DNA from: Pseudobutyrivibrio sp. MD2005 | Lineage (GTDB): Bacteria > Bacillota > Clostridia > Lachnospirales > Lachnospiraceae | Direction of reading: 5' to 3' | Assembly (NCBI RefSeq): GCF_000621865.1 | Contig: NZ_JHXE01000013.1 | Location: 1 to 64,000 of the forward strand | Length of the DNA stretch: 64,000 nucleotides | Shown: positions 3,560 through 50,805 of the stretch, one piece after another | Layout of the letters: the number at the start of each line of letters is the position of its first letter | Position numbering within the stretch: position 1 is the stretch's first letter | Translations under genes and position numbers: made by a program | The notes under the pieces: generated by a model | Told to the model about the DNA's origin: nothing | What the model saw: only the letters and a program-made list of their open reading frames with translations | The model's database searches: none

Positions 3560-3608
3560 TGTGAAAAAACTGTGAAACGTAGGAATTAGCACTGAAAAGT
3601 CTTATACT
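3560..3608 (+). promoter_or_regulatory. Site A: 11-bp direct repeat operator and -10 box of the signalling operon
   Basis: TGTGA at 3560-3564 is repeated exactly 11 bp later at 3571-3575. A -10-like TATACT lies at 3603-3608, 27 bases after the second repeat, with no good -35 consensus, as expected for an activated promoter. The first gene starts at 3656 after an AGGGGGAG ribosome site. The same arrangement recurs at B, F and H. Confidence 0.7.
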
Positions 3609-3655
3609 ATTTAATAGCTATATCCAATTTTAAATGGTTAAAATGAGGGGGAGTT

Positions 3656-4999
3656 ATGGGGTCACTTCAAGGAATAAGGTTACAGATTAAGCGAGTTTAT
3701 ATCGTACTAGGGGTTTCTTTTGTATTATTATTAATTTCTTTTGTTTTTCATGTTATAAAAATTAATAAATTTAATGCCTTGGAAAGGTATGATACTCCAG
3801 ATACGGTGTCTATGGATGTTACTGCAGATATACATCCTAGAGGCCTACTTACTGATTCTTGGGAAAAGAATGATGCCTTCGATGGAGTTGTTATCAACGG
3901 AAAAATATATGAGGCCACCATAACAAATAATTCTAAAAGCTTACTGGTTGATTGGAAGCTTAGAGTAAATATTGAAGATTCATGCTATATAAATAATTGT
4001 TGGAATGGAACAGTAGAAATCCATCAGTTCTCAAATGGTGAGGAAAAGGTTCAAGAAATAGATTTGAGAAACTACAATATTGATGATATAACTCTTAATT
4101 ATTATCTTGCAGGACAGGATCTTTTGATTCCATTGAATAGTGGTGATTATTTTGTATATCTTCCATACGAAGGAAGTGATTCTGGAGAGGTTCCACTTAA
4201 ATCAACCGCGGAGTTTTCTGGCGCGGTTAATATCGGTTTCATTTTATATAGCTTAAGTGGGGATAATGATTTATCTGATTATGTAATGAGCTACCATATC
4301 AATAAATCGTATTTCGCTGGAACTACAGGAATGATTTTCCTGATCCTACTTCCATTGTGGGCTTTGCTTACAATTGTATGGACGATAATTTCTATTATTA
4401 TCATGCAGTTTACAAGTACACTTTACATCCAAAATCAGATTATTGATGATATGTTTAATCTTAGCGGTACACTTGCTGATGATAAGGATTACTATCACAA
4501 GGAACATTCTTTGCGTGTGGCCAATTATTCAAAAAAGATCGCCGAAGCAATGGGAATGGATAAGCAGGATTGCCAGGTGATTTATTATGGCGCTATGCTT
4601 CATAATATTGGAAATTACGCTGTCCCAGAGCGCGTGTTGGAAAAGAGTACTCAGCTTTCTACTGAGGATGAAAAGCTGCTCCAGATTCACACTATCAAGG
4701 GAGCAAAGATACTTGAAAATATGAAATCTATACCACAGTCAGCATTGGCTGCAATGTATCATCATGAAAAGTATGATGGAAGTGGTTATCCTATGGGAAA
4801 ATCAGGGGAGGATATTCCACTTATTGCAAGAATTGTTGCTGTGGCTGATGCCTACGATGATATGATTCATGAGAGGGATTATCGAAGAAAGTACTCAGAG
4901 CAGGAAATTAAAAATATATTTAAGGCAAATTCAGGTAAATGGTTTGATCCAATTATCGTAGATATTTTTTTAGAAATTGTAGATTCCATTGAGGAGTAG
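3656..4999 (+). CDS. Membrane HD-GYP domain protein with CBM2-like extracytoplasmic domain and altered HD motif
   Basis: The 447-residue protein has a membrane segment at about residues 12-34, an extracytoplasmic beta-rich domain at about 45-215, a second membrane segment at about 225-258 and a C-terminal HD-GYP domain (about 270-447). HD-GYP enzymes hydrolyse cyclic di-GMP. The GYP part is intact (HHEKYDGSGYP), but the metal-binding HD pair reads LHNIGN, with Asn at residue 317 where Asp is normal, so activity may be lost or changed. The external domain (NNSKSLLVDWKL, then CWNGTVEI) resembles a type 2 carbohydrate-binding module. It is the first gene of the long operon, 8 bases before the next gene. 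Confidence 0.85.
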   Translation: MGSLQGIRLQIKRVYIVLGVSFVLLLISFVFHVIKINKFNALERYDTPDTVSMDVTADIHPRGLLTDSWEKNDAFDGVVINGKIYEATITNNSKSLLVDWKLRVNIEDSCYINNCWNGTVEIHQFSNGEEKVQEIDLRNYNIDDITLNYYLAGQDLLIPLNSGDYFVYLPYEGSDSGEVPLKSTAEFSGAVNIGFILYSLSGDNDLSDYVMSYHINKSYFAGTTGMIFLILLPLWALLTIVWTIISIIIMQFTSTLYIQNQIIDDMFNLSGTLADDKDYYHKEHSLRVANYSKKIAEAMGMDKQDCQVIYYGAMLHNIGNYAVPERVLEKSTQLSTEDEKLLQIHTIKGAKILENMKSIPQSALAAMYHHEKYDGSGYPMGKSGEDIPLIARIVAVADAYDDMIHERDYRRKYSEQEIKNIFKANSGKWFDPIIVDIFLEIVDSIEE

Positions 5000-5007
5000 A
5001 TTATAAG

Positions 5008-8000
5008 ATGACGAAGTTCGACAGGAAAAAAACTATATATCTGCTGGTGGGCATTATTATAAATGTCGTAGGGAGACTGTTAGCTATTAAAATTCAATTT
5101 CCAGGCTTCCTAAACATGACAGGAATAGTGTATGCATCCTATTATGGCGGCGCAGCTGTAGGTAGCCTTGTAGCTATTATTAGCGGCGTTATTTCTGCAA
5201 TTTTTATTAGAAGAGATATTTACCTTATTTTGGTAGATTTTATTTTTGCTATAGCTGTATTTTTACTTACCAGAAAAAACAGATTTTTTAAAAGATTTTT
5301 TTCTGTACTCAGTTACATTTTAGTATTCTCGGCAATAAAGGGTGTCATGTTGATAATGGCATATCCGGCCTTATTCGTTGATGGATTTGATATTTATTTA
5401 GTTGATGCATTATTTGATTATCTATTGAACTTCGGCTTGTCATCAGCTACATGTTCGGTTGTAAGCTGTTTTTACATTTGCTTTGCAGATGCATTTGTTG
5501 GACTTATGCTGATTTATATTGTCAGAAGAACATACAAGTTCTACATCCGTAAGAAAAATGCTAAGAGATTAAAAAAATCTCTTGGTGCCAAAGTCTCTTT
5601 ATCAATTCTTATGGCTGCAGTTATTTTATCTTTTGCGCATGCTACAAGCGCTGAAGCAGCTTTAAATGTCAATTTTATTCAAAGAATCTACAACAGTGAT
5701 AATGGACTTATAGGAGGTTGTGCTAATGCGCTGGCCCAGACTTCAGATGGAAGTATGTGGGTAGGTACTTACGGCGGGTTATACAGATTTAATGGCAAGG
5801 AATTCGAATTGTTGGATTCTGTAGATTCCATTAGATCAGTCCAGTGTTTGTATGTTGATTCAGAGGATAATCTTTGGGTTGGTACAAACGGTGCAGGCGT
5901 AACAATTCTGGATGATGAAATAAATGTCACTGTAATAAATTCTGATAGTGGATTGCTTTCTAATTCCGTTCGCGCAATTGAGCAGGGAAATGATGGAAGC
6001 TATTACATCGGAACCACAGCAGGTCTTTCTATAGTTAGATCCAATGATGTTGGGCTTACTGTTGTAGGCGGTGTAGGTGATATCGGCAACGTTTCAAGAG
6101 AGGCAGTTGACCATGAGGGAAATGTTGCTGTGCTTAACACAGTTGGAATTATTTCTGTGTTCTCTGGAAAGGATGCCAATAGATTTGCCACAATCGAGTG
6201 CGATGAGGCTACCAGCATCGAATTTGATGGCGAAGGTTCGCTGTATGTAGGCACTGATGTTCAACGCATTTACAAATACGAAAAGGTTGATAGAGAATAT
6301 GTGTTGGCAGGTACTATAGAAACACCGGGATTTGTTTATATTAATAATATGTATTTCCACGAGAGTGGATATATGTTTATAGCGGCAGATACAGGTATTG
6401 GTTCTGTTGCTACTGATGGAACTGTTAACCAGATCAATACAGGAAGTTTCGATAGTTCAGTAGAACAAATCTATGAGGATTATCAAGGCGATTTGTGGTT
6501 TACCTCATACAGAAGAGGATTGCTTTGCTTGAGCCATTCCGCATTTACGGATATGTTTGTTGTTTGCAATGTTAAGCCGTCTGTAGCAAATGCGATAATT
6601 GAAAAAGACGGCCTGTACTATGTTGGAACAGATGATGGTTTAGTTATTCTTGATTTCGAAAATAGTGATAGTGTTACAAATGAGATAACAGATTTCTATA
6701 GCGGCATAAGAGTCCGTACATTAGCGAAGGATAAGGAAGACAATCTGATTATTGCAGGTTATGGCAAAAACCTGATGTGCATAACAAAGGACGGCGAGTT
6801 CCGCCAATATATCCGTGATGATCTGCCACAGATTGATGATAGAAAACAAAGATATGTTACTTGCCTTTCAGATGGAAGGGTGATTGTTTCCGGTGAGAAT
6901 GGTCTCACAATAATTAACAATCACGAAATTGAAAAGACTCTGGTATACGGCGAGGAACTAAAAAACGCAACAATACTTAACGCCTTAGAGTGTGATGATG
7001 GAACTATTTTGGCAGGCAGCGATGGTGACGGTATTGTAGTCATTAAGAATGACAAAGTAGAAAGATATGTTAATAAAAATGATGGATTGTGCTCCAGCGT
7101 TATTCTTAGAATAGTTGAAGATAAGATGGGCGAAGGGTACTTTGTCATGACTGGCAGTGGACTTTGCTATATGGATAGCGAGTATAAAGTCCGAGAGCTT
7201 TCAGGAATACCATTTTTCAACAACTATGATTTATACCAGGATGATAATGGTAATGTATTTATTTTGGGCGGTGCTGGTATTTATGTTGTTAGATACGAGA
7301 ATCTTATATCTAACGATAGCTCAAATGCTTTTACACTTATAGATTCAAAGGCTGGATTGCCAGGTAGTTTGACAAGTAATGCTTGGAACTATGTTTGCAA
7401 AGATAACTGTATTTATTTGTGTGGTAGTACTGGAACTTATTCCCTTAGCATAGATGATTATAAACTGGCTGTAGATTCATATAAGGCAAAAATCACAGGC
7501 TTATCACTAGACGGAAATTATTCTAGTATTACAAGTAGAGATACTATTGTAATTCCTAGAGGAACAAGTAAAACTGATATTTATTTTGATTTGAACAACT
7601 TTACACCTACAGATCCGTATATACGATACTATATGTCTGGAATAGATACAGAAAAGACAAAGGTTCAGTCCAGCTCTTTAGAGGCTGTATCTTACTACAG
7701 AATGCCTTATGGTGATTACCAGTTTCATATTGAGGTTCTAAACGAGGATAACACTGTTATAGAAGAACAGGTTTACAACATCACTAAAGAGAGAGAAGTA
7801 TTTGAGACTACCTTGTTTAAAATGTACTTCTATTTCATCCTCCTGTTGATAACAATTTCAGTTGTTATTTCAATGGCAAATGGAACCGTATATACGTTAA
7901 CCAAAAAGCAAAATGTAGAGCATGAAGAAATAGTAAAGAAACTTCAGGCTGAAAAGACAGCAGCTCTTGAAAGGTCTCTTAGAATGGAAGAAGAGGCCAA

Positions 8001-9807
8001 CAAGATGAAATCTGAGTTTTTGGCAAATATGTCTCACGAAATCAGAACACCTATCAATGCCATTATTGGTATGGGAACAATGATTACACGAGAGTCAAAA
8101 GAGGACACTACCAAAAAATATGCATGGGATATTCGAAATGCCAGTAAGACATTACTTGCACTTGTTAATGATATCCTTGATTTTTCAAAAATCGAATCAG
8201 GCAAGCTGGAATTGGTACTCAGCGATTATGATTTGAGTGTCCTTGTAAATGATTTGTTTAATATGATTCGTCCAAAAGTAAGTGAGAAGAAGCTTGATTT
8301 TAATGTGATTATCAATCCGAGAATTCCTCAAAACTTATATGGCGATGATGTAAGAATTGAGCAAATCATGATGAACATTTTAAGCAATGCTGTAAAGTAC
8401 ACGCAGGAAGGTTCTGTTACATTTGAAATGGACTATGAACCTGTTGATGATACAAACATAATGCTTAAAGTTAGTATTTCTGATACAGGTATAGGAATTA
8501 AAGAGGAGGATATTGAAAAGCTATTCTCACCATATCAAAGAATTGATGAACATAGAAACAAGAAGGTAGAGGGAACAGGTCTTGGAATGAGTATCACAAA
8601 GAGCCTTCTTGAAAAGATGGACAGCAATTTGGAAGTTGTCAGTGAATATGGTAAGGGATCAACATTCTCATTTGCAATTAAGCAGTCATATTCTGGTAGC
8701 GATACAATTGGCGATTACAAATTAAAGGCAGAAACAGTTGTTGCTGAGGATGCCGAAGAACAGTTCCATGCACCAGATGCAGTTGCACTTGTAGTTGACG
8801 ATGTAGAAATGAATCTGATAGTTGCCAAGAATCTGATGAAGAGAACTCAAATAAAAGTTGAGACTGTTGGCTCAGGTCCACAGGCAATAGAGTTATGTCA
8901 GCACAAAAAATACGATATCATTTTCCTTGATGCAATGATGCCGGGAATGAGTGGAGAAGAGACATTTGAATCTATAAGAAAGATGTGTCCAGACAACTCC
9001 GATACTCCGATAATTGTTCTTACAGCAAATGCAGTTAAGGGGGCAAAAGAACAATATCTTGCTGTTGGTTTTACTGATTATTTATCAAAACCAATTGATG
9101 GCATGGAATTAGAAGCAGCACTTGATAAATATCTTCCGGAGGATAAAAAGATATACGATATTACAGTAGCTGCAGACGAGGAAACAAATGATATTACCGA
9201 AGATGACGAAGTGGTAAATGCATTGAGAAACATTCCAGAAATGGATGTAGATGCAGGTATTGCAACGGCAGGCGATAAAGATACTTATCTTGTGGTTTGT
9301 AGAAGCTTCTATGACACATCAAAAGAACGCATTCAGATGATTAGAGACTACTATGAATCAAAAAATATTAAGGATTATACAATACAGGTACATGCACTAA
9401 AATCATCTGCAAGGTTGATTGGAGCTAATGATTTATCCGCAAAGGCGTTAGAGCTTGAACTTGCTGGAAAGGATAATAATTTAGATACAATAACCGCAAA
9501 TACGGATTCAACCTTGGAGATTTATCAAAGTATTTATAATCAAATGAAGGATGTCTATGGAATAGATGAAGAGTCAAATTCATGTGACGATTCAGACAAA
9601 ACTCCAATCAGTGAAGAAGAGCTTGAAGATGCTTATGGGGCGCTAAAAGAGTTGATTCCATTGATGGAATATGATGCCATAGAGATGCTTTTTGATGAAT
9701 TAAAAGACTACAAGCTCCCAGAAAAAGATGAGGAAATCTTCAGCGAACTTAAGAAGGCACTGAAGGTGTTCGATTGGGACAAGATGGAGCAAATATTGAG
9801 CATATGA
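5008..9807 (+). CDS. Hybrid histidine kinase with membrane sensor, propeller, REC and HPt domains
   Basis: The 1599-residue protein starts with about six membrane helices (residues 1-185) resembling the N-terminus of the protein at 9846. Another hydrophobic segment near 195-212 is followed by a large extracytoplasmic region (about 218-800) of two-component-regulator propeller repeats (WVGTYGGLYRFNG type), a Y_Y_Y-like domain (about 830-920) and a membrane helix near 940-958. Inside the cell are HisKA (His1010 in SHEIRTP), HATPase (N box LSNAVKYT, DTGIG, GTGLG), a receiver (Asp1308 in LDAMMPGM), an HPt domain (His1462 in HALKSSAR) and a C-terminal helical tail shared with two paralogues. Such hybrid kinases run a phosphorelay inside one chain. 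No DNA-binding domain is present, so the final target lies elsewhere. Confidence 0.92.
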   Translation: MTKFDRKKTIYLLVGIIINVVGRLLAIKIQFPGFLNMTGIVYASYYGGAAVGSLVAIISGVISAIFIRRDIYLILVDFIFAIAVFLLTRKNRFFKRFFSVLSYILVFSAIKGVMLIMAYPALFVDGFDIYLVDALFDYLLNFGLSSATCSVVSCFYICFADAFVGLMLIYIVRRTYKFYIRKKNAKRLKKSLGAKVSLSILMAAVILSFAHATSAEAALNVNFIQRIYNSDNGLIGGCANALAQTSDGSMWVGTYGGLYRFNGKEFELLDSVDSIRSVQCLYVDSEDNLWVGTNGAGVTILDDEINVTVINSDSGLLSNSVRAIEQGNDGSYYIGTTAGLSIVRSNDVGLTVVGGVGDIGNVSREAVDHEGNVAVLNTVGIISVFSGKDANRFATIECDEATSIEFDGEGSLYVGTDVQRIYKYEKVDREYVLAGTIETPGFVYINNMYFHESGYMFIAADTGIGSVATDGTVNQINTGSFDSSVEQIYEDYQGDLWFTSYRRGLLCLSHSAFTDMFVVCNVKPSVANAIIEKDGLYYVGTDDGLVILDFENSDSVTNEITDFYSGIRVRTLAKDKEDNLIIAGYGKNLMCITKDGEFRQYIRDDLPQIDDRKQRYVTCLSDGRVIVSGENGLTIINNHEIEKTLVYGEELKNATILNALECDDGTILAGSDGDGIVVIKNDKVERYVNKNDGLCSSVILRIVEDKMGEGYFVMTGSGLCYMDSEYKVRELSGIPFFNNYDLYQDDNGNVFILGGAGIYVVRYENLISNDSSNAFTLIDSKAGLPGSLTSNAWNYVCKDNCIYLCGSTGTYSLSIDDYKLAVDSYKAKITGLSLDGNYSSITSRDTIVIPRGTSKTDIYFDLNNFTPTDPYIRYYMSGIDTEKTKVQSSSLEAVSYYRMPYGDYQFHIEVLNEDNTVIEEQVYNITKEREVFETTLFKMYFYFILLLITISVVISMANGTVYTLTKKQNVEHEEIVKKLQAEKTAALERSLRMEEEANKMKSEFLANMSHEIRTPINAIIGMGTMITRESKEDTTKKYAWDIRNASKTLLALVNDILDFSKIESGKLELVLSDYDLSVLVNDLFNMIRPKVSEKKLDFNVIINPRIPQNLYGDDVRIEQIMMNILSNAVKYTQEGSVTFEMDYEPVDDTNIMLKVSISDTGIGIKEEDIEKLFSPYQRIDEHRNKKVEGTGLGMSITKSLLEKMDSNLEVVSEYGKGSTFSFAIKQSYSGSDTIGDYKLKAETVVAEDAEEQFHAPDAVALVVDDVEMNLIVAKNLMKRTQIKVETVGSGPQAIELCQHKKYDIIFLDAMMPGMSGEETFESIRKMCPDNSDTPIIVLTANAVKGAKEQYLAVGFTDYLSKPIDGMELEAALDKYLPEDKKIYDITVAADEETNDITEDDEVVNALRNIPEMDVDAGIATAGDKDTYLVVCRSFYDTSKERIQMIRDYYESKNIKDYTIQVHALKSSARLIGANDLSAKALELELAGKDNNLDTITANTDSTLEIYQSIYNQMKDVYGIDEESNSCDDSDKTPISEEELEDAYGALKELIPLMEYDAIEMLFDELKDYKLPEKDEEIFSELKKALKVFDWDKMEQILSI

Positions 9808-9845
9808 TATAATATTTACTAGGTTTTTACGCGAGGGGATTTGGG

Positions 9846-11975
9846 ATGAAGAAGCGAGACAGGAAGGTAGATAAAAATGTAGTTCTAAATATAGTGGCTA
9901 TAGTTGGTGGTGTAATAATCAACGTATTGTTTGGTTATTTCACATATACGTCAGGTATGCCTATATATTTCGATACTATTGCGACGATAGGTGTTGGAGC
10001 AGTATGTGGAATGCTGCCAGGATTTTTGGTTGCTGTATTTACCAATCTGTTTTGTAGCTTTTTCAATCCCTTCGCTATTTATTATGCTATTCTCAGTGTG
10101 CTAATAGCAGGCGTTACTGCAATATTTGTTCATCGTAAATATTTCAAAAATAAATTAAGCCTAGTCTTATATATTCTTATTTTAGCTTTAGTTTCAGGGG
10201 GACTAGGTTCTGTTATACAGCTGGCACTTATACACCAGCCTCAGTTTGTAGAGGTGGCTCATGCCTCTGAATATCTTTCAAATCATTTAAAACTTAATTT
10301 TTTCATTAGCTTTGTTTTAATTAATATTTGTCTAAATATAATCGACAAGGGTATTTCTACTATTGCTGTTGTAGTTGTTCTTAGATTCATTCCAGAAAAG
10401 AATTTGGATGGAATATGGGATGTAGGTTGGCAACAGCGTCCCCTTTCTGCAGTTGATATGAAGCGAATGAAGCTGTCATCAAAGAAAAATGGTGGCAAGC
10501 TTCAGAGGAGAGTCACTGGAATGCTTGTGGTTGCAGCAGTACTTATTACACTCATCATGGGAATTATCAGTGTTCACTTATTCTATGAGAATGCCAAGGT
10601 AAGCTATACGTTAAATGCAATAGGTGCAGCAAAGATGGCATCAAAAGTAATCAATCCAGATAGAGTTGATTCCTACATAAAAAAAGGTAGAGAGTTAGGG
10701 GACTATGTTGAGACTGAAAACGCTTTATATGACATTAGAGCCAGCTATGAAGGCGTGGAATATCTCTACGTTCTCAAGATGAGAGATGATGGCTGTCAGG
10801 TAGTCTTCGATTTGGAAACACCTGATGTTGAAGCATATGTAAATGGAGATATCATTAAATTTGAAGAGGCCTTTGAACCATATCTTGATGATTTGTTTAG
10901 GGGTGAAGAGATAGAGCCAATTGAATCAGATGATTTATCAGGATGGGTTATTACCCAGTACTATCCTGTAAGAAATTCTGCTGGCGAAACAGTATGTTAT
11001 GCGTGCGCAGATGTAAAGATGAATTATATCTCTGATTATCTTATTGGATATATCATCAAGGTAACTTTAATTTTCTCAGGATTTTTCATGCTGATTCTTG
11101 CCTATGGTATGTGGTTATCAAGGTATTTCCTTGTGTATCCAATCAACAGTATGGCATCTTACACTAATGATTTTATGTCAGAGAATGATAATCAGACTGC
11201 ATTAGAGGAAAATGTTAGAAAGATAAAGGCTCTGGATATTCATACCGGAGATGAAATAGAAAACTTATACAAGGCACTTTGCAGAATGACAGAAGATACT
11301 GCAGAGAAGATGCGTGATGTTAGACAGCAGTCTAAGGCTATTAACCAAATGCAAACTGGTCTGATAATCACAATGGCGGACTTGGTGGAAAACCGTGATT
11401 CAGATACTGGTTATCATATCCTTAAGACAGCTGATTACGTAAGAATCATTTTGGCAGGTTTACAGAAAAAGGGATATTACGCTAAGAAACTTACACCTAA
11501 ATTTATTGCCGATGTAGAAATGTCAGCACCATTACATGATATCGGTAAGATTAATATTCCTGATGCGGTGCTAAACAAGCCGGGCAAACTTACAGATGAA
11601 GAGTATGAAATCATGAAGACTCATACTACAGCTGGTAAGCAGATTATGGAGAAAGCTATTAGCACAGTTAAAGGTGAGAGCTATTTGAAAGAAGCTAGAA
11701 ACATGGCGGCTTATCACCATGAAAAATGGGATGGCTCAGGCTATCCAGAAGGATTGAAGGGAGAAGTAATACCGCTATCTGCACGTATCATGGCAGTTGC
11801 AGATGTATTCGATGCCCTAACAGCTAGAAGAGTATATAAAGACCCAATGCCATTTGAAAAGGCAATGGGAATTATTGTAAAGGATGCAGGTACACATTTT
11901 GATCCAAAATGTGTAGAAGTTTTTGTTGAAGCAGAGAAAGAAGTAAGAAGAGTATTGAGAAAGTATCAAGAATAG
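9846..11975 (+). CDS. Membrane HD-GYP phosphodiesterase with sensor domain
   Basis: The 709-residue protein has a multi-helix membrane region (about 1-190) that resembles S-component/MASE-like sensors. A membrane helix near 220-243, an extracytoplasmic sensor (about 245-400, dCache-like), another helix near 403-425, a HAMP-like linker and a complete HD-GYP domain (about 510-705) follow. The HD pair is intact (LHDIGK, His564-Asp565), as is HHEKWDGSGYP, so it should degrade cyclic di-GMP. It is 38 bases from the kinase before it and shares that protein's membrane domain. Together with the degenerate HD-GYP at 3656 it links the operon to cyclic di-GMP. No GGDEF synthase lies in the window. Confidence 0.9.
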   Translation: MKKRDRKVDKNVVLNIVAIVGGVIINVLFGYFTYTSGMPIYFDTIATIGVGAVCGMLPGFLVAVFTNLFCSFFNPFAIYYAILSVLIAGVTAIFVHRKYFKNKLSLVLYILILALVSGGLGSVIQLALIHQPQFVEVAHASEYLSNHLKLNFFISFVLINICLNIIDKGISTIAVVVVLRFIPEKNLDGIWDVGWQQRPLSAVDMKRMKLSSKKNGGKLQRRVTGMLVVAAVLITLIMGIISVHLFYENAKVSYTLNAIGAAKMASKVINPDRVDSYIKKGRELGDYVETENALYDIRASYEGVEYLYVLKMRDDGCQVVFDLETPDVEAYVNGDIIKFEEAFEPYLDDLFRGEEIEPIESDDLSGWVITQYYPVRNSAGETVCYACADVKMNYISDYLIGYIIKVTLIFSGFFMLILAYGMWLSRYFLVYPINSMASYTNDFMSENDNQTALEENVRKIKALDIHTGDEIENLYKALCRMTEDTAEKMRDVRQQSKAINQMQTGLIITMADLVENRDSDTGYHILKTADYVRIILAGLQKKGYYAKKLTPKFIADVEMSAPLHDIGKINIPDAVLNKPGKLTDEEYEIMKTHTTAGKQIMEKAISTVKGESYLKEARNMAAYHHEKWDGSGYPEGLKGEVIPLSARIMAVADVFDALTARRVYKDPMPFEKAMGIIVKDAGTHFDPKCVEVFVEAEKEVRRVLRKYQE

Positions 11976-12006
11976 CCACATACTTTGCATAGGGGGCAAG
12001 AGTTTT

Positions 12007-15000
12007 ATGAAATATATGAGTTGCAAGAGGTTACTTGCTACAATGATGGCATCGTCAGTGATTATAACGATGGCTAGTTTGAATACAGAGGCTAAGAAAA
12101 ATGTCCAACAAGCGGACGCAGTATCTTCCGCCACGGAGAATCTTGAGAAAAACGGTGGAGGTTATGCGGTTTCCGGCCAGATTGATGGAGTTGGCTATGC
12201 CACAAAACTATATGATTCGTCTGATGGACTGCCTACTTCAGATGCCAATTGTGTATTGGCAACCAGCGATGGCTATATCTGGATTGGTAGCTATGGTGGA
12301 ATTATAAAATACGACGGTTCAACATTTACAAGACAGGATTCTTCTACAGGTCTGACTAACGCCAGAGCTTTGTTCGAGGATAGCCAAGGGCGAATATGGG
12401 TTGGTACAAATGATAACGGTATTGTTGTTATAGACGGCGATACTACAAAGCAAATTACTTATAAAGAGGGGCTGCCAGCCTCTACAATTAGAGCGTTCGC
12501 CGAAGACGAAAACGGCAACATATTTGTAGGTACAACAGGTGGCGTTTGCTATATTAGCTCGGATTACAAAGTGACAGATTTGGGCGATGAAAGACTTGCT
12601 GGTAAATTCGTACAACATCTGTGTACTGATAATGTAGGAAGAATTGTTGGTAATACAAAAGATGGTGACGTATTTATTATCCAAAATGAAATGATAATAA
12701 ATTACTACGTAAATGCGGATATATTAAAGGACACCATATCTATTGCTTACCCAGATCCTGAAGCTTCCCAGTATTTATATATGGGAACAGATACAGGTAT
12801 TGTCTACTATGGTTCTATTTCCAGCAATTTAAAAGAACTAACAGAAATAGATTTAAGCGAATATACAACAAAGATTGAAAATATAACCTATGCATGTGGA
12901 AGAGTCTGGATAATCGGAGGCAATGTTGTAGGATATCTTGATGCAGATAACAACTTCAATGTTATCGAGAATCTGCCGGTAGATACTGCAATTGAGATGC
13001 TCACATCAGATTATCAGGGAGATATATGGCTGGCATCTTCTCGTCAGGGTGTTTGCGAAATTATAACTAGTAATTTCCAAAATATCAGTGAGTTGGCAGG
13101 ACTTGAGCCAGAGGTAGTAAACACAACATGCAAATATGATGGTGTTTTATATATCGGAACAGATAAAGGCTTAGAGGCTGTAGATGAGGACAATAATGTA
13201 GTTACTAATGAACTTACCGATATGCTGGCTGAAACAAGAATCAGATGTATCATGAGAGATCCTGAGGACGGCCTATGGGTATCTAGCTACACAAATGGCT
13301 ATGGATTAGTTCATTATTCAAATAGTGGAGAGATAACTCTCTACAATGAAGAAAATGGATTTATAGATGATGGAGTAAGATGCACTTCAATTGCTTCAGA
13401 TGGAACAATTCTGGTAGGTACAAACAAAGGCGTGGCCCTACTCAAAGACGGTGTTGTTACTAGAACAATCACTCCAGCGGATGGGCTTAAAAATGGAGTT
13501 TGTCTTACAGTATCCGAAGGATATGATGGGGTAATATATATTGGTACAGACGGTGGTGGTCTATACAGTTATAGTAATGATACGCTAACTCATATAGAGA
13601 GAGACGAAGGGCTCACATCAGACGTTATTCTTAAAATCAAACCAGATGCAGACCATGGTGTAAACTGGGTACTCACATCAAATTCAATTGAGTTTATAAG
13701 AGATGGAGAAGTATATCCGATAACAACATTCCCATACAATAATAATTTCGATATTGTATGCGATAGCAATGATAACTATTGGGTTTCATCTTCATGTGGT
13801 TTGTATTGTGTGGATGCTGAGGCAATGCTTGCAGATCATATTGTTGATTATTCTTTGTACAACAGTGTAAATGGCCTTACCAGCATTCCTACAGCAAATT
13901 CATATAGCGATATTGATGCTGAGGGCAATCTTTATATAGCCGGTAGAACAGGAGTTAATCATGTTAACATTAATAATTTCTTTAGGCAGACTAGTGAAAT
14001 AAGAATCGAAGTAAAAGAAATTACCTATGATGATCAGGCGGTTACTCCAAATGAGGAAGGTGTATATGTGATTCCGGCAGATGCAGGAAGAATTATGATG
14101 CGTCCGGCAATTCTTAACTACACTCTTTCTGATCCGATTGTAAAAGTATTTCTTGAGGGGGATGAGAATTCAGGAATAACTGAAGTTCAAAGCGAAGTAG
14201 GAGCACTTGAGTACACTGGGCTTGGATATGGAAGTTATGTATTGCATTTGCAGATTGTAGACGAAGTCACAGGCAAAGTATATCAGGACTCAACTTACAA
14301 TATAGAAAAGAAGCCACATATTTTTGAATTGGCGGTAATCAGAATATTGCTAGCAGCTCTTGTGGCAATCTTAGTTGGATTTATTGTATGGCGTGTAATG
14401 ACAAGCACAATTATTAGACGTCAATACAAAGAAATTCAAGCGGCGAAGGAAGAGGCAGAAAGAGCCAATAGTGCAAAATCCAGATTCCTTGCCAATATGT
14501 CTCACGAGATTCGTACACCAATAAATACCATTATTGGTATGGACGAAATGCTTCTTAGGGAAAACGGAGATGGAGTGGATAAAGGCTACTACATGTCTGT
14601 AATCAATTATGCGATAGATATCCGTTCGGCAGCCGAGACACTTTTGGGATTGATTAACGACATTTTAGATTTGTCCAAGATAGAATCTGGAAAGATGCAT
14701 CTTGTGAATAGCGAATACCGTCCGGCTGATCAGATACGTGGAATGGTTAAGATGATTCGTGTCCGCAGTGAGGAAAAGAATCTAAGCTTTGATTTAGACA
14801 TAGATGAAAACATTCCTAAAAAGCTATACGGCGATTACGGAAAGATTAAGCAGGTCGTATTAAATCTTCTTACCAATGCTGTTAAGTACACTGAAGAGGG
14901 CGGATTTGTTTTAACTATCAAAGTGCTGGAAAAGAAGGGGAATAACTGCAAGCTATTATTCTCTGTTAAGGACACGGGAATTGGTGTTAAGCCAGAGGAT

Positions 15001-16056
15001 ATTAAGAAACTGTTTTCTGCTTTTGAAAGACTAGAGGAAGAGAAAAATACTAGTATACAAGGCACAGGGCTTGGCCTTGATATTTCAAGACAGTTTGCAG
15101 AATTAATGAATGGCTCACTTACATGTGAGAGTGTTTATGGACAGGGTTCTGAGTTTAAATTTATTGTGGAGCAGGAAATCGTAGTTGATATTCCAATTGG
15201 AACATTCAACGAGGATGATGAGGAAATGAGCGCTGGCCCTTATGAACCATTATTTGTTGCTCCGGATGCATCTGTACTTGTTGTTGATGATAATCCTATG
15301 AACCTAACGGTTGTAAAGGGACTATTAAAAGAAACTAAAGTATTTGTTACAGTGGTAACTTCTGGACAGGAATGTTTGGAGAAGCTCAAGTTTGGTGAAT
15401 ATGACGTAGTCTTTTTGGATCATCTGATGCCAGGTATGGATGGAATTGAAACCATTGGAAAAATCAGGAATAAATATCCTGATCTGCCAGTTTATGCATT
15501 TACGGCAAACACACTGGTTGAAAGTGATGATTTCTACGAGAGCAAGGGCTTTACTGGTTATATTTCAAAGCCAGTGGATGGCCGTGAATTAGAAAAAATA
15601 ATAAGAAAGCATCTCAGTGATGACATCGTAATGGAAGCAGATAAATGGAAGACTGATTATAGAAATGCAGAGCTTCCAGAAGAATACCTATGGTTGAAAT
15701 CGGTTGAGGGTATATCTGTTTCGGATGGCATAAGAGCAAATGGCGGGGTTGAGACTTATATAATGTCTGTTAATAACTTCTATGACACTATAGATGACAG
15801 CTCTGCTGCTATAGAAACTGCCTATAAAGACGGCGACTTAAAGCTATATACAATAAAGGTCCATGCACTAAAAAGCTCAGCTAGAATTCTAGGTGCTAAA
15901 AACCTTAGCCAACTGGCTAAAAGCATAGAAGAGGCTGCACATAATAACAACCTGGAGTTTATAGCAGACCATACTGGTACATTGCTTAAAGAATATAGGG
16001 GATTCAAAGAAAAGTTATCTCAAATAAAAAATAGCGAAGCTAGAGAGTTACTTTAG
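12007..16056 (+). CDS. Hybrid histidine kinase with propeller sensor, REC and HPt
   Basis: The 1349-residue protein has a signal peptide or anchor (about 1-28) and extracytoplasmic propeller repeats (about 55-680; WIGSYGGIIKYDG, WVGTNDNGIVVID). A Y_Y_Y-like domain (about 690-770) and a membrane helix near 780-800 follow. The cytoplasmic part has a coiled coil, HisKA (His833), HATPase ([18 protein letters not shown]), a receiver (Asp1138 in [10 protein letters not shown]) and an HPt domain (His1286 in HALKSSAR). It is clearly paralogous to the kinase at 19366 over its whole length, but it ends soon after HPt and lacks the C-terminal tail found in the three other kinases. Propeller sensors of this type often read extracellular sugars; the ligand here is unknown. 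Confidence 0.92.
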   Translation: MKYMSCKRLLATMMASSVIITMASLNTEAKKNVQQADAVSSATENLEKNGGGYAVSGQIDGVGYATKLYDSSDGLPTSDANCVLATSDGYIWIGSYGGIIKYDGSTFTRQDSSTGLTNARALFEDSQGRIWVGTNDNGIVVIDGDTTKQITYKEGLPASTIRAFAEDENGNIFVGTTGGVCYISSDYKVTDLGDERLAGKFVQHLCTDNVGRIVGNTKDGDVFIIQNEMIINYYVNADILKDTISIAYPDPEASQYLYMGTDTGIVYYGSISSNLKELTEIDLSEYTTKIENITYACGRVWIIGGNVVGYLDADNNFNVIENLPVDTAIEMLTSDYQGDIWLASSRQGVCEIITSNFQNISELAGLEPEVVNTTCKYDGVLYIGTDKGLEAVDEDNNVVTNELTDMLAETRIRCIMRDPEDGLWVSSYTNGYGLVHYSNSGEITLYNEENGFIDDGVRCTSIASDGTILVGTNKGVALLKDGVVTRTITPADGLKNGVCLTVSEGYDGVIYIGTDGGGLYSYSNDTLTHIERDEGLTSDVILKIKPDADHGVNWVLTSNSIEFIRDGEVYPITTFPYNNNFDIVCDSNDNYWVSSSCGLYCVDAEAMLADHIVDYSLYNSVNGLTSIPTANSYSDIDAEGNLYIAGRTGVNHVNINNFFRQTSEIRIEVKEITYDDQAVTPNEEGVYVIPADAGRIMMRPAILNYTLSDPIVKVFLEGDENSGITEVQSEVGALEYTGLGYGSYVLHLQIVDEVTGKVYQDSTYNIEKKPHIFELAVIRILLAALVAILVGFIVWRVMTSTIIRRQYKEIQAAKEEAERANSAKSRFLANMSHEIRTPINTIIGMDEMLLRENGDGVDKGYYMSVINYAIDIRSAAETLLGLINDILDLSKIESGKMHLVNSEYRPADQIRGMVKMIRVRSEEKNLSFDLDIDENIPKKLYGDYGKIKQVVLNLLTNAVKYTEEGGFVLTIKVLEKKGNNCKLLFSVKDTGIGVKPEDIKKLFSAFERLEEEKNTSIQGTGLGLDISRQFAELMNGSLTCESVYGQGSEFKFIVEQEIVVDIPIGTFNEDDEEMSAGPYEPLFVAPDASVLVVDDNPMNLTVVKGLLKETKVFVTVVTSGQECLEKLKFGEYDVVFLDHLMPGMDGIETIGKIRNKYPDLPVYAFTANTLVESDDFYESKGFTGYISKPVDGRELEKIIRKHLSDDIVMEADKWKTDYRNAELPEEYLWLKSVEGISVSDGIRANGGVETYIMSVNNFYDTIDDSSAAIETAYKDGDLKLYTIKVHALKSSARILGAKNLSQLAKSIEEAAHNNNLEFIADHTGTLLKEYRGFKEKLSQIKNSEARELL

Positions 16057-16067
16057 AGGAATAATTA

Positions 16068-18575: not shown

Positions 18576-18589
18576 TCGGAGGAGAAATA

Positions 18590-19348
18590 ATGGGACAGAA
18601 TAAAATACTTATAATTGGCGAGAAAGAATCATTTATTATAAGGGTGCTGCTGAAAAAATTGGCAGATGCGGATATAGATGCGGTATTTGTGACTCCATCC
18701 CTAAATAAAATAAATGAACAGTGGGATGACATTTCACTAATCACATTTTACATGGAAAAGGATGAGCGCCTTGAAGATGAAATCAGAACCTTCCTTGTAG
18801 ACAAGATGGAAGATGATGACAAGCGCGTAATCCTTATTGGAGAGCCAACAGATACAGAAATAGTTGCACATGGAATACCATCGATATTAATCTACTCCAT
18901 ACTACCTAGACCTCTGGATTATGATAATTTCATCGAGGTTGTCAATTCCTATGGTACTAAGGTTTCAACTGGAGAATTAAAAAAGAGTATTCTGGTTGTA
19001 GACGATGATCCAAACTACATGAATCTGGTACGTGAATGGCTTAAGGATACATATAAAGTATCTATGGCTACATCTGGCCTTAGAGCTATAAAGTGGCTGG
19101 GAGCTAATAAAGTAGATTTGATTCTACTTGACTATGAAATGCCAATAACAGATGGCCCACAGGTTCTTGAAATGCTTAGAGCGGATCCTGATACAAGGGA
19201 CATTCCGGTTATGTTTTTAACTGGTAGAGATGATAAAGAAAGCGTTATGTCTGTTATGGCTCTAAAGCCAGAAGGCTATTTCTTAAAGACTATAGGAAAA
19301 GAAGAATTACTTAACAAACTAAAAGTCTATTTTGTAACTAAAGAATAA
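18590..19348 (+). CDS. Double-receiver response regulator without output domain
   Basis: The 252-residue protein has two receiver-like halves. Residues about 130-252 form a canonical receiver: ILVVDDDP acidic pocket, phospho-acceptor Asp181 in LLDYEMP, FLTG and the LKT lysine. Residues about 1-120 look like a decayed receiver, with ILIIGEKE where the acidic pair should be and no clear acceptor Asp. No DNA-binding or enzymatic output domain follows, so it probably passes phosphate to, or binds, the kinases around it. It sits 14 bases after one hybrid kinase and 17 before the next, inside the same operon. Confidence 0.88.
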
Positions 19349-19365
19349 AAAAGAATAGGGCTAAT

Positions 19366-23604: not shown

Positions 23605-23654
23605 TGTGAAATTACTGTGATAAAAGGAGTTGCCTAAGGATAATCAGATATAAT
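23605..23654 (+). promoter_or_regulatory. Site B: 11-bp direct repeat operator with -10 box
   Basis: TGTGA at 23605-23609 and 23616-23620 (11-bp period) is followed 28 bases later by a consensus TATAAT at 23649-23654. It lies just after the kinase stop and upstream of site C, so two repeat operators control the first peptide gene. Confidence 0.7.
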
Positions 23655-23678: not shown

Positions 23679-23715
23679 TGTGACATTACTGTGACAAGTA
23701 GGATGCTATCATAAT
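23679..23715 (+). promoter_or_regulatory. Site C: 11-bp direct repeat operator before the first peptide gene
   Basis: TGTGAC at 23679 and 23690 has the 11-bp period. Here the likely -10 is closer (TATCAT at 23707 or CATAAT at 23710), 12-15 bases after the second TGTGA. The layout resembles sites D and E, which also precede very small ORFs. Confidence 0.6.
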
Positions 23716-29590: not shown

Positions 29591-29624
29591 ATAAATAGAC
29601 AAAATAATGGGAAAGGGGAGTACG

Positions 29625-32636: not shown

Positions 32637-32683
32637 TGTGAAACCTTTGTGAAATGCGGGGTTTTATGAGACAAATCTATAGA
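32637..32683 (+). promoter_or_regulatory. Site G: 11-bp direct repeat operator before the PRPP synthetase gene
   Basis: TGTGA at 32637-32641 and 32648-32652 has the 11-bp period. A possible -10, TATAGA, lies at 32678-32683, 25 bases later. The site is in the divergent region between the NSS transporter and the PRPP synthetase and points toward the latter. Confidence 0.58.
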
Positions 32684-41135: not shown

Positions 41136-42728
41136 ATGAAATCTAGTAATAAGAAAAAGAAAAATTGGGGAATCAACAGAAAGGCACTATTATCAATTAT
41201 CGTATTTACGTTATTGATGAATGTAATCATGTGCATAAGTGGTTCCCTGATTTTTGATAAGGCGATTCAAAAAATATATAACGAGCGCGGATATGTGGTA
41301 GCCAATATAATCATGGACGAGATCGACCACGATAAAATCGCAGAATATACATCTACCTGGCAGGCTGACGATTACTATTATGAAATGGTTGATTATCTAA
41401 AGGGGATACAGGCCCATTCCAATGCTGCTTATATCTATATAGGGGTTCCTTACGAAGATAAGACAATTAAATATGTTTATGATTCGGGAAGTAATATAGG
41501 ATTTGTAGATCCAATTGCGGCGCCTTTTGATGAAATTTGGCAGGCATATCAGGAGGGTGTACAGCCAAAAAGCTATTTGGTTAGACATTCCCAGTACGGC
41601 TATTTAACTTCTAGCTGTCTTCCTGTAAAGGATAGCTCTGGGAAAGTGGTAGCTTTACTTTTTGTTGATACCAATATGGAAGTCATTCGTACCACTTTGA
41701 ATAGATTTGCTTTGAACATAAGCATCATTTCATTCATTGTCTTGGGCATATATTGCATTATTAGTTGGCGCGCTATGCGTACGAGTATTATCAAGCCTCT
41801 TATGATTATTAAAAATAATCTGAGACTGTTTTCGATAGATACATCATACAAGGATGATACATTGGAAAATATCAATACAAATGATGAGCTTGAGGAGCTT
41901 GCCCAATCTGTTAGCAATATGGAAAAAGATATCGTTGAATATATTGACGATATAAAGCGAATCACTGCTGAAAAAGAGAGAATTGGTGTGGAGTTAAACA
42001 TCGCATCACGCATTCAGGAATCTATGCTTCCAAATGTTTTTCCACCATTTCCTGGCAGGAATGAGTTTGAGATATTTGCAACAATGACTCCGGCCAAAGA
42101 AGTAGGTGGAGATTTCTATGATTTCTTCTTCATAGACGATAATCATCTCGCCCTTGTAATGGCTGATGTTTCAGGAAAAGGTATTCCGGCTGCCATATTT
42201 ATGGCTATCACCAAAACACTCATAAAAAATAGAGCGTTAACAGGTAAGAATCTATCTACCTCAGAAATACTATATGATATCAACAGGCTTTTGTGTGAAG
42301 ATAATGATGCTGTGTTATTTGTCACAATATGGTGTGCAATCATCGATTTAACAACAGGTAAAGGAATTGCATCAAATGCAGGCCATGAATATCCTGCAAT
42401 ATGTAGAAAGGGCGGAGAGTTTAAGCTTGAGAAGTACAAGCATTCACCAGCTGTTGCCACAATAGATGGAATCAAATTCGAAGAACATGAATTTGAACTA
42501 AATCCAGGCGATACACTTTTTGTTTATACAGATGGCGTGGCTGAAGCTACAAGCCTTTGGGATGAGCTTTATGGTCCAGAGAGAATGCTAAAAGCTTTAA
42601 ATGTCGCCCCAGAAGCTTCACCGGAAATCCTTCTTAAAAATGTGAAGGAGAGCATAGATGATTTTGTCGGCAAAGCATCACAGTTTGACGATATTACAAT
42701 GCTTGGATTTAGATATCTTGGAAAATAG
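41136..42728 (+). CDS. Membrane-bound PP2C-type phosphatase (RsbU/SpoIIE family) with HAMP domain
   Basis: The 530-residue protein has a membrane helix near 15-35, an extracytoplasmic sensor (about 36-185), a second helix near 188-208, a HAMP linker (about 210-265) and a C-terminal PP2C/SpoIIE domain (about 290-530). The metal-binding motifs are intact: EVGGDFYDFF, MADVSGKG, YTDGVAEA and SQFDDITML. Such phosphatases activate a STAS protein by removing phosphate, here most likely the product of 30842. The ribosome site is weak, which suggests modest expression. It is followed after 9 bases by the unknown protein and regulator genes. Confidence 0.9.
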   Translation: MKSSNKKKKNWGINRKALLSIIVFTLLMNVIMCISGSLIFDKAIQKIYNERGYVVANIIMDEIDHDKIAEYTSTWQADDYYYEMVDYLKGIQAHSNAAYIYIGVPYEDKTIKYVYDSGSNIGFVDPIAAPFDEIWQAYQEGVQPKSYLVRHSQYGYLTSSCLPVKDSSGKVVALLFVDTNMEVIRTTLNRFALNISIISFIVLGIYCIISWRAMRTSIIKPLMIIKNNLRLFSIDTSYKDDTLENINTNDELEELAQSVSNMEKDIVEYIDDIKRITAEKERIGVELNIASRIQESMLPNVFPPFPGRNEFEIFATMTPAKEVGGDFYDFFFIDDNHLALVMADVSGKGIPAAIFMAITKTLIKNRALTGKNLSTSEILYDINRLLCEDNDAVLFVTIWCAIIDLTTGKGIASNAGHEYPAICRKGGEFKLEKYKHSPAVATIDGIKFEEHEFELNPGDTLFVYTDGVAEATSLWDELYGPERMLKALNVAPEASPEILLKNVKESIDDFVGKASQFDDITMLGFRYLGK

Positions 42729-42737: not shown

Positions 42738-43229
42738 ATGATTGATGTTAAATTGTACGAGGCTCTGATTAATTTTGAAGATAGCGAGGAGGCTCAGGAC
42801 TATTACTATCAGTCCATGGATAAGCTTACAGGCAAATATGCAAAAGATGGTCATGAAGAAACTCTCAGAGAAAAGATTCTAAGGGTGTATGCCACCCTAT
42901 TTTGTGAGGATACAGCAATGGAAAATGCTCCATATGCCAGTGTTGATGATGTGGCTGACACAGCTGATAGGCTCTACATTGGAAGTGTTGGGTATGATTC
43001 TGAACACTGGTATAGAATGAAGCACCATTTTCCTGTCATAGACGAGGATAATTATGATAGATTTGCTGCACTTGTAATTGTAGATCTTAACTGCGGAATG
43101 CTTCATGACATGGCTGTAAATGAAAGTAAGACGCTTGTTGTGGGCGAGGCATCACCTCTTAATATGACAAGCGAACAACGCAAAAATCAGAAAACATCTT
43201 CCATAAGTTTGGCGGGAGGTGATATCTGA
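42738..43229 (+). CDS. Hypothetical protein, 163 residues, upstream of the response regulator
   Basis: I do not recognise this family. The product is soluble and acidic, mostly helical at the N-terminus (IDVKLYEALINFEDSEEAQD) with a conserved-looking SEHWYRMKHHFPV stretch near residues 95-107. It lies 9 bases after the phosphatase gene, and its TGA overlaps the ATG of the regulator gene (ATGA), so it is translationally coupled to the regulator. A role as partner of the phosphatase or regulator is plausible but not shown. Confidence 0.75.
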   Translation: MIDVKLYEALINFEDSEEAQDYYYQSMDKLTGKYAKDGHEETLREKILRVYATLFCEDTAMENAPYASVDDVADTADRLYIGSVGYDSEHWYRMKHHFPVIDEDNYDRFAALVIVDLNCGMLHDMAVNESKTLVVGEASPLNMTSEQRKNQKTSSISLAGGDI

Positions 43230-44035
43230 TGAGAGTTATGTTTGTTGACGACAAGAAAAAGGACCTTGATGAGCTACTTGAAGTGTCTGAAGACTTGTTT
43301 TCAGGAGCTGAAGTAGTATCCTTTGATGATCCTTTGAATGCCCTTGCCATGGCTCGTACATCTGAAATTGATATTGCGATAATAGATACTGATATGTGTG
43401 ATTTAAGTGGGATTGAGCTTGGAGGCTATTTAAAAGAGCTTAATCCATTTATTAATATTATTTTCACTAGCAACACGACCAATTACGGATTTGAGGCTAT
43501 GCAGCTTCATGCAAGCGGATACATGTTAAAACCTGTCACAAAAGATAAGGTGAGAGATGAATTGGCGCAGCTTCGATACGCTGAAAAATACAATGACCAT
43601 AAGCGTGTGTTTGCTCAGACCTTTGGCAATTTTGAGCTATTTGTAGATGGTAAACCAGTGGAATTCAAATACTCAAGAACAAAGGAAATTGTGGCAATTT
43701 TGATTAATAATAGAGGGGCACAGACCACCAACGGAGAGATTATTGCATCTCTTTGGGAAGATGATGGAGACCCTGCTAAAAAGCAGTCCTATCTATCAAA
43801 TCTTCGTCAGGATCTGCAAAATACTTTCACCAAGCTGAAGCTTGAAGGAATCATCCTAAAGCAGCGTGGCAGCATGGCCATTGCAAAAGAAAGAATAGAA
43901 TGCGATCTATTTGATTGGCTTGAAAAGAAAAATGCATCTAAGTATAAATACTTGGGTGATTATATGAATCAGTATAGCTGGTGTGAATTCTTCCACGCTG
44001 AGCTAGATGAAATAAGTTATGACTTGGAGGAATAA
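43229..44035 (+). CDS. Response regulator with receiver and SARP-like winged-helix DNA-binding domain
   Basis: The 268-residue protein has a receiver domain (about 1-120: FVDDKK acidic pair, phospho-acceptor Asp53 in IIDTDM, Thr80, Lys101 in LKP) and a C-terminal OmpR/SARP-like winged helix (about 130-230). The latter has FGNFELFVDG, TKEIVAILINN, a GEIIASLWEDD helix and a SNLRQDLQ recognition helix. SARP and OmpR domains bind direct repeats with an 11-bp period, which is the period of the operators found across this window. It is the only receiver-plus-DNA-binding protein here and so the prime candidate output of the kinases. Its TAA overlaps the next ATG. Confidence 0.85.
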   Translation: MRVMFVDDKKKDLDELLEVSEDLFSGAEVVSFDDPLNALAMARTSEIDIAIIDTDMCDLSGIELGGYLKELNPFINIIFTSNTTNYGFEAMQLHASGYMLKPVTKDKVRDELAQLRYAEKYNDHKRVFAQTFGNFELFVDGKPVEFKYSRTKEIVAILINNRGAQTTNGEIIASLWEDDGDPAKKQSYLSNLRQDLQNTFTKLKLEGIILKQRGSMAIAKERIECDLFDWLEKKNASKYKYLGDYMNQYSWCEFFHAELDEISYDLEE

Positions 44036-50037: not shown

Positions 50038-50059
50038 TAGTTCTACGAAAGAGAACGAA

Positions 50060-50364: not shown

Positions 50365-50436
50365 GGATGGTTTGCGGGGCGAATTTACTTGGCAATCAAC
50401 GGATGGTTTGCGGGGCGAATTTATTTGGCAATCAAC
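50365..50436. repeat. Tandem 36-bp direct repeat (two copies)
   Basis: The unit GGATGGTTTGCGGGGCGAAT plus 16 further bases occurs at 50365-50400 and 50401-50436 with one difference (TTTACTT against TTTATTT). A partial third start, GGATG, follows at 50437. It is not a CRISPR because no spacers separate the copies. Confidence 0.85.
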
Positions 50437-50491
50437 GGATGCTACTTGTGTTTTTGAATAAAGTTAAAATAGACAAGTAGCATTTCTATAT

Positions 50492-50700
50492 TTTTCATGC
50501 TAGTGTGTATTATCTCGGAAGAATCTACTATATTTAATAGGCATATATTATATATGTGTGTATTTGTGGCGTGGGGCATCGGTAGATAACTGCTCAAAAT
50601 AGGGGAAAACTACTTGTGATTAGCTGGCAGCCAAAATATAACAAGTAACTTTTAAAATATACACCAAAGTTATGCCACACAAGCTTTTTTAGCATGAAAA
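50492..50700. ncRNA. Candidate structured RNA or MITE-like element framed by inverted repeats
   Basis: TTTTCATGCTA (50492-50502) is the exact reverse complement of TAGCATGAAAA (50690-50700), and GTGTG (50503) matches CACAC (50676) just inside. Further pairs lie within: ATCTAC with GTAGAT, and CTACTTGT with ACAAGTA. Nested pairing over 209 bases suggests one folded RNA or a small inverted-repeat element. The strand and family are unknown. Confidence 0.4.
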
Positions 50701-50771
50701 TCATTACACAAGCTAATTGAAAACATGGCTCTGTTTCCAGAGGTAAATATAAAAATAGAAATGTGATTTTG

Positions 50772-50805
50772 TGTGATACTAGTGTGACAAAAAAAGTGAT
50801 ATAAT
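50772..50805 (+). promoter_or_regulatory. Site E: 11-bp direct repeat operator with consensus -10
   Basis: TGTGA at 50772-50776 and 50783-50787 (11-bp period) is followed 12 bases later by TATAAT at 50800-50805. A further TGTGA lies at 50762. It precedes two small ORFs and is the only such site outside the 3-45 kb signalling region. Confidence 0.6.

Follow-up and report, generated by a model that had tools for sequence, protein, structure and literature searches.

Two 11-bp direct-repeat operators around a peptide-export locus of Pseudobutyrivibrio, one of them probably read by a receiver-SARP response regulator

Several regulators are described as reading tandem sites, and OmpR-type winged helices are known to use direct repeats with a period of 11 bp. 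SARPs bind 11- or 22-bp direct repeats near the -10 element (PMC10936776), Mycobacterium tuberculosis PhoP binds as a tandem dimer to heptamers separated by a strict 4-bp spacer (PMC4832192), and the WalR (YycF) box is TGTWAH-N5-TGTWAH, as cited in PMC9210968. Here we analyzed a 64,000-nucleotide stretch of Pseudobutyrivibrio sp. MD2005 (contig NZ_JHXE01000013.1, positions 1 to 64,000; the window), in which TGTGA-like pairs 11 bp apart stand before genes for kinases, small peptides and a peptide exporter. A preliminary description had assigned eight such pairs to one operator and one transcription factor. The repeated signal is real but merges two operators, called class A and class B below. 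We propose that class A is read by the response regulator g27 of the window, acting as an activator, and class B by another regulator, a reading to which we give about three chances in four.

The window contains five exact copies of TGTGA-N6-TGTGA (at 3560, 23605, 23679, 32637 and 50772, every one on the plus strand) against 0.22 expected from shuffled sequence. On the plus strand, 11 is the only enriched start-to-start distance between 6 and 33 (five pairs; all other distances gave 0 or 1), and on the minus strand there was no pair at 11, the highest count being 2, at distance 12. The genome (3.09 Mb in 26 contigs) holds 18 exact copies, five of them inside the window (binomial 2.6e-5). When one mismatch was allowed the window count was ordinary, 10 against 5.9 expected, and 11 of 100 shuffles reached 10 or more. 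The pair at 29540 differs from the exact pair at one position and those at 28818 and 35762 at two; since 70 window sites lie within two mismatches, mismatch count alone backs none of these three.

The two classes were separated using the pairs and genes listed in segments, 20 kb long at most, that surround the orthologues of gene g15 in the genus. Class A reads TGTGAYA-N4-TGTGAYA-N10-TANNNT, its -10 element being usually extended (TG-N-TANNNT). Its promoters in the window, the regulator proposed to act on them and the gene adjoining this regulator are the following.

23679..23712, plus strand: class A promoter before peptide gene p1 and the exporter; exact operator, extended -10, profile score 37.0
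28818..28851, plus strand: class A promoter, TATGACA variant, before peptide gene p2 and the partner-switch genes; profile score 26.8
50772..50805, plus strand: class A promoter before p3, a conserved small protein of 43 amino acids; profile score 41.4
42738..43229, plus strand: g26, protein of 163 amino acids adjoining g27
43229..44035, plus strand: g27, response regulator with a receiver and a SARP/OmpR-type winged helix; proposed class A activator

The search pattern TGTGAYA-N4-TGTGAYA-N7-TG returned 61 non-redundant sites, of which one lying inside a gene (L095) was dropped and 60 were used for the logo. Columns outside the pattern were nearly invariant in these 60 (T28 in 59, A29 in 60, T33 in 60). 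In loci fetched without requiring the TG, 28 of 30 sites had TANNNT at exactly the same distance; of the other two, one had CATAAT and one was the initial register of a triple repeat. Where the TG was lacking the hexamer was often TATAAT or TATACT. If the hexamer is placed at -12 to -7, the repeats cover -40 to -30 and -29 to -19, with their centre at -29.5. A profile trained only on the sites of other genomes (57 of the 60, own-genome sites being removed) gave 41.4 for 50772, 37.0 for 23679, 26.8 for 28818, 11.4 for 23605, 4.1 for 32637, -6.4 for 29540, -11.0 for 3560 and -24.0 for 35762. The maximum in 60 random windows was 19.8 and the lowest training site scored 31.4. The 28818 site exceeds the first value and falls short of the second, and is therefore taken as a real but weak member of class A; a pattern search returned it as well.

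The distribution of class A followed that of g27. Among 29 genomes of the genus, class A was found in all 17 with a g27 orthologue (at least 66% identity) and in 1 of the 12 without, while a reversed control pattern had no match in the 29; 102 of the 104 class A sites in the genus belong to the 17 g27-bearing genomes. Among 200 sampled family genomes the pattern occurred in eight, including all four with a g27 orthologue of at least 59% identity, and the control pattern in none of the 200. The genome under study carries further class A sites beyond the window, before a lipoprotein-like gene (C7:173487), before a gene for a 58-amino-acid protein (C4:202913) and twice on contig C5. Both C5 sites precede double-glycine peptide genes (near 183498 and 184276; L216, L217) that had not been used to define the pattern, which led to them. 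Orthologues of p1 in three loci (L063, L067, L068) are also preceded by class A.

Gene order also connects class A with g27. Outside the genus, in genome G220, it precedes both g26-g27 and a double-glycine peptide gene, adjoining NHLM-type exporter genes, and in G148, also from another genus, it flanks g26-g27 on both sides. Three genomes of the genus (G019, G005, G027) share the order class A, g15, g16, g26, g27, class A, g14, SpoIIE, HD, hybrid kinase, with class A upstream of g14-g25-g06-g10. In G163, again outside the genus, a class A-like site (score 26.7) lies between a g27 homologue of 33% identity and an operon of HD and hybrid-kinase genes. The gene order in these four genomes links homologues of the kinases encoded at 3656-23598 of the window with g27 or, in G163, with its homologue. 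Of 13 regions holding a g27 orthologue, 10 contain class A, a proportion that is not unbiased because most of these regions were selected through g15, a gene that often carries a class A promoter itself.

Genome G007, grouped with the window's genome in one clade (support 91/97), keeps LysR, sirC, g14, g15, g16, S66 and enolase on one contig. Between the conserved flanks at that contig place no match to g04-g13, p1, p2 or g24-g27 was found, nor any p3 match beside pyruvate kinase. A genome-wide search of this assembly, which is 89% complete, revealed neither g27 nor any class A site. The region 3560-44035 of the window, with its genes for kinases, peptides, exporter and regulator, thus behaves like a module lacking from the G007 contig (C98; L065, L208).

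The receiver domain of g27 was recognized (Response_reg, 2.5e-14) and was found in 24 of 24 aligned members. Its C-terminal part matched Trans_reg_C with 15.0 bits, below the cut-off of 26.2, and weak matches to this model, at E values up to 0.1 and at best 2.5e-4, were seen in 23 of 24 aligned members. The best sequence match in the PDB was EmbR (E 0.0023). A Foldseek search with the predicted DNA-binding domain placed AfsR and EmbR chains at ranks 1-6 (E 2.4e-5 to 1.2e-3), with PhoP behind; the mean predicted local distance difference test (pLDDT) of the predicted domain was 81, and the final 17 residues were below 50. When the full-length model was compared with OmpR/PhoB proteins both domains aligned, with poor overall superposition (most at 10-17 Å root-mean-square deviation, template modelling score below 0.5), and the domain-level search was relied on for this reason. 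The requirement for an activation domain sets g27 apart from a classical SARP, and the Pfam cut-off sets it apart from a plain OmpR protein, so that judged from sequence and model it is best described as a predicted receiver-SARP hybrid. The roughly 45 residues at its C-terminus could be a remnant of the BTA activation domain. Relatives of this type of regulator occur in many of the 200 family genomes, many of the matches spanning the receiver only.

Of the 17 genus members, eight have SYLSN as recognition helix and nine have SYLCN. The base at position six of the second heptamer varied along with the helix, being C at 44 and T at 8 sites in genomes with SYLSN, and C at 8 and T at 42 in those with SYLCN (102 of 109 sites, G012 and G220 being left out). 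This covariation is supporting, not independent, evidence. The neighbouring gene g26 adjoins the g27 orthologue in 13 of 13 regions and is not next to the 33% homologue of G163. Scans with Pfam and NCBIfam found no family for g26, which is a candidate partner or sensor.

A number of observations weigh against the assignment of class A to g27. The co-occurrence rests on few evolutionary events. On a relA tree of 28 of the 29 genomes (G012 had no relA match and was left out) four changes in g27 presence are needed (bootstrap 3-5), and class A and g27 match in 28 of 28 rows; only one independent pair stands on well-supported branches, and the sign test is not significant. As g26 accompanies g27, co-occurrence cannot separate the two. 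The difference in helix and base largely follows two clades, so that orthologous sites are counted repeatedly, and G001, with SYLCN, is mixed (2 C, 3 T). G012 (81% complete, 460 contigs) is the sole genus genome with class A and no g27; the relaxed pattern with one mismatch added one match each in G002 and G003, which is not above the control (matches in three genomes). Besides G163, three family genomes (G038, G109, G094) match the pattern without a close g27 orthologue, the G094 match lying inside a gene and that of G109 before a double-glycine peptide gene. Conversely, the pattern is missing from several family genomes with g27 homologues of 38-44% identity (G207, G077 and G117, for example), which may use a different operator, and from G018, which has a 39% homologue. 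The g27 regions of G009, G020 and G025 have no class A, their sites being elsewhere in the genome, and in the window itself the profile scan gave no class A promoter for g27's own operon. Both C5 sites begin with CGTGACA, one mismatch from the pattern. The classical SARP activation domain is nearly absent from g27, in which about 45 residues follow the wing and form two helices, mostly of low pLDDT.

The remaining supported pairs of the window belong, or probably belong, to class B (TGTGAAA-N4-TGTGAA).

3560..3576, plus strand: class B box ahead of the operon of HD and hybrid-kinase genes; second half followed by TATACT at 27 bases
23605..23620, plus strand: class B-like box, preceding the class A promoter of p1 by 74 bp; second half followed by TATAAT at 28 bases
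29540..29555, plus strand: class B-like box that overlaps the LVKKL-stop codons at the end of g14 and precedes g15; second half followed by TATACT at 29 bases
32637..32653, plus strand: class B box before a unit of phosphoribosyl pyrophosphate-synthetase-like and NlpC-P60 genes

Class B was present in 29 of 29 genus genomes, with 105 sites against 8 for the control, and precedes varied genes, such as those for HU and for a conserved protein of 305 amino acids. Its occurrence in genomes with and without g27 shows that it is not tied to this regulator. As a set, class B had no constant distance to a -10 element (35 sites genome-wide, scattered), and it may include a promoter subtype of its own. 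The 29540 pair had been dismissed for overlapping the conserved LVKKL/LMKKL-stop codons, a decision overturned by a recount of -10 elements. In the gap between g14 and g15, 7 of 7 relative regions have TATACT or TATAAT 28 bases after the second half, whether g27 is present or not (L058, L065 of G007, which lacks g27, L067, L068, L072, L073 and L074), making a promoter at 29540 likely, and the pair was kept as probable class B. In L073 two more copies of GAAAAAAYTGTGA are seen, followed by TATACT at 27-28 bases. Of 59 class A promoters, 5 have a class B box in the 130 bp upstream; the opposite strand gave 1 such box and two control stretches gave 0, so that some promoters may be doubly controlled. 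No candidate for the class B regulator could be singled out among the eight OmpR-type genes of the genome.

These data modify the preliminary description at several points. Of its eight pairs, the five exact ones stand, 28818 is retained as weak class A and 29540 as probable class B, and 35762 falls away. The latter has two mismatches and a class A score of -24.0 and lies directly behind a terminator-like hairpin, which leaves the MacAB-like unit without a supported site. A single operator for all eight pairs is ruled out by the genome distributions and the class A profile scores, and the single factor is not supported, as the two operators are differently distributed across genomes. The shared regulon is supported for both peptides and the exporter, and would extend to the partner-switch genes if p2 and g14-g16 form one transcript; it is not local, given the additional sites on C4, C5 and C7. 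The wall-hydrolase unit drops out, its site at 32637 being class B. The kinase operon does have a box, which is class B here, and a class A-like box precedes the homologous operon of G163. The 11-bp spacing is kept in relatives, and the test set beforehand to refute the operator came out in its favour. A CRP-type site was also considered; no exact TGTGA-N6-TCACA palindrome was present in the window.

Who reads class A can be disputed. Reading by one of the eight ordinary OmpR-type regulators, with g27 merely co-inherited with the module, seems unlikely to us. The genome does encode eight Trans_reg_C proteins, and PhoP and other OmpR-type regulators bind heptamers with a 4-bp spacer, in other words 11-bp direct repeats; the reverse complement of the M. 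tuberculosis PhoP site in PMC4832192, TCACAGC-N4-TCACAGC, even contains the TGTGA-N6-TGTGA core. Against such a reader, class A is absent from 11 of the 12 genus genomes lacking g27, it flanks g26-g27 in two other genera, and the repeat base and the g27 recognition helix vary together. It is very improbable that one factor serves both classes, class B being a weaker or repressing variant: class B is found in all 12 g27-less genus genomes, including G007, and its -10 element, where at a set distance, lies 27-29 bases away, unlike that of class A, even though both share core and spacing and class B boxes stand upstream of some class A promoters more often (5 of 59) than in the controls (1 and 0 of 59).

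We see hardly any room for class A being no operator but a promoter recognized by an alternative sigma factor that the partner-switch proteins set free. The rigid spacing to the -10 element would suit such a factor, as would the HATPase, STAS and SpoIIE partner-switch genes in and near the regulon, but the -10 has the ordinary TG-N-TATAAT form, the element upstream of it consists of an 11-bp direct repeat, and a third register of the repeat is present in L043 (917/928) and L074 (862/873). In addition, no sigma factor was detected among 40 window proteins scanned with Pfam. Chance matches picked by eye account for 35762, and the window count with one mismatch is indeed ordinary; as an explanation of the pairs in general, chance has next to no probability in view of the exact-pair excess, the single enriched distance, the genome distribution and the fixed -10 columns, and it is refuted for class A.

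The genes of the locus, many of them putative class A targets, are listed below.

3656..23598, plus strand: g04-g10, two HD_5 proteins, four hybrid histidine kinases and one receiver protein; proposed input
23742..23981, plus strand: p1, double-glycine leader peptide with Cys-x2-Cys, zinc-ribbon-like
24012..24434, plus strand: g11, short protein of membrane-fusion type, matching NHLM_micro_HlyD at its N-terminus
24439..26619, plus strand: g12, C39 peptidase/ABC exporter; NHLM_micro_ABC1, 898.5 bits against a cut-off of 853.3
26627..28813, plus strand: g13, ABC exporter subunit, NHLM_micro_ABC2-like; 692.5 bits, below the cut-off of 709.4
28885..29073, plus strand: p2, double-glycine leader peptide, zinc-ribbon-like
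29118..29555, plus strand: g14, HATPase_c_2 anti-sigma-like kinase
29607..30839, plus strand: g15, protein of 410 amino acids
30842..31141, plus strand: g16, STAS-domain protein
41136..42728, plus strand: g25, SpoIIE-type phosphatase
50844..50975, plus strand: p3, conserved small protein of 43 amino acids, behind class A

The four hybrid kinases carry Hpt-like domains, and three have Reg_prop sensors. In relatives, class A also stands before further double-glycine peptides, lipoproteins, the 43-amino-acid protein, g14 or g15, although the automated listing assigned no downstream gene to some of the sites. The gene directly behind it is g14 in G026, G006, G010, G013, G004 and G023, and g15 in G001, G020, G025, G028, G019, G005, G027 and G021. 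Relatives of g15 were found at five named loci, four in Pseudobutyrivibrio and one in an uncultured Butyrivibrio. Cys-x2-Cys motifs are present in the cores of p1, p2 and the two C5 peptides. Zinc-ribbon or zinc-finger Pfam models matched the five peptides scanned from this genome below the cut-off only, and the double-glycine peptides of G220 (L104, L109) have Cys-x2-Cys cores judged zinc-ribbon-like by eye. A lipoprotein-like family with the motif KGVYV(N/T)Y recurs behind class A (C7:173487, which is L212, and L047, L059, L074, L153, L154 and L165). Proteins of the p3 type, with 43-45 amino acids (MVVGQII...TEF...LRVV), lie behind class A in nine loci, namely the window and L110, L143, L147, L148, L160, L161, L162 and L164; p3 has no match in Pfam or NCBIfam. 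At 50365-50437 of the window, downstream of pyruvate kinase, a stretch of about 36 bases, GGATGGTTTGCGGGGCGAATTTAYTTGGCAATCAAC, occurs twice in tandem.

On the observed sequence, spacing and conservation of class A, and its co-occurrence and linkage with g27, we base a proposal for binding, activation, kinase partnership and transcript limits. The two heptamers, TGTGACA or TGTGATA and 11 bp apart, would replace the -35 element at a fixed distance from the -10; g27 most likely binds them as a head-to-tail dimer and would recruit the housekeeping RNA polymerase. The upstream hybrid kinases probably pass phosphate to g27, whose targets would be the zinc-ribbon-like peptides with double-glycine leaders and the exporter that serves them, as well as partner-switch genes, lipoproteins and the 43-amino-acid protein. 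Class B, the other 11-bp direct-repeat operator, would have a reader of its own, probably an OmpR-type regulator. We can only suggest tentatively that the whole is a self-contained circuit, in which the kinases act on the receiver-SARP activator and the exported peptides, or a ligand bound to them such as a metal, feed back on the kinases; if true, this would place quorum or metal sensing of the SARP type outside Actinobacteria, in rumen Lachnospiraceae.

The strong part of the analysis is that class A together with g27 appears to form a well-defined, testable regulon. Matching a regulator with receiver and SARP winged helix to a concrete operator makes the regulon readable from sequence wherever a close orthologue is present, and it was through the operator that exported double-glycine peptides whose cores resemble zinc ribbons came to light. 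Searches of an open-access library listed no paper on this regulator-operator pairing and none on COG3947 regulators. The regulator-operator pair and its unusual cargo are what stand out here.

The host belongs to the Lachnospiraceae, and this, together with the mostly TG-extended -10 of class A, distinguishes the system from that of the SARPs AfsR and EmbR, which g27 resembles in its OmpR-type winged helix and class A in its 11-bp repeats close to the -10. The register of the class A repeats, centred at -29.5 under the assumed -10, equals that of the afs box in PMC10936776. The 3' repeat of SARP sites is placed there 8 bp from the -10, and the second class A heptamer ends 10 bases before it, a difference that depends on the repeat length taken. 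In addition, g27 has an N-terminal receiver, and the all-helical domain that spans about 150 residues in AfsR, according to the same paper, is represented by about 45 in g27, mostly of low confidence. With OmpR/PhoB proteins and PhoP the locus shares the combination of receiver and winged helix, the heptamers with a 4-bp spacer and, on the reverse strand, the TGTGA core; the heptamer flanks differ (TGTGACA in class A, GCTGTGA for PhoP), and g27 falls below the Trans_reg_C cut-off. Class B resembles the WalR box, as cited above, in spacing and TGT-A half-sites, and differs at the fourth position, G instead of A/T, by a comparison of patterns in which no search for the WalR motif was made. As for NHLM/NHLP export, g12 exceeds the NHLM_micro_ABC1 cut-off, whereas g11 reaches 32.3 against 156.2 bits and corresponds to the N-terminus of the fusion protein only, and the cargo here is zinc-ribbon-like, with short double-glycine leaders.

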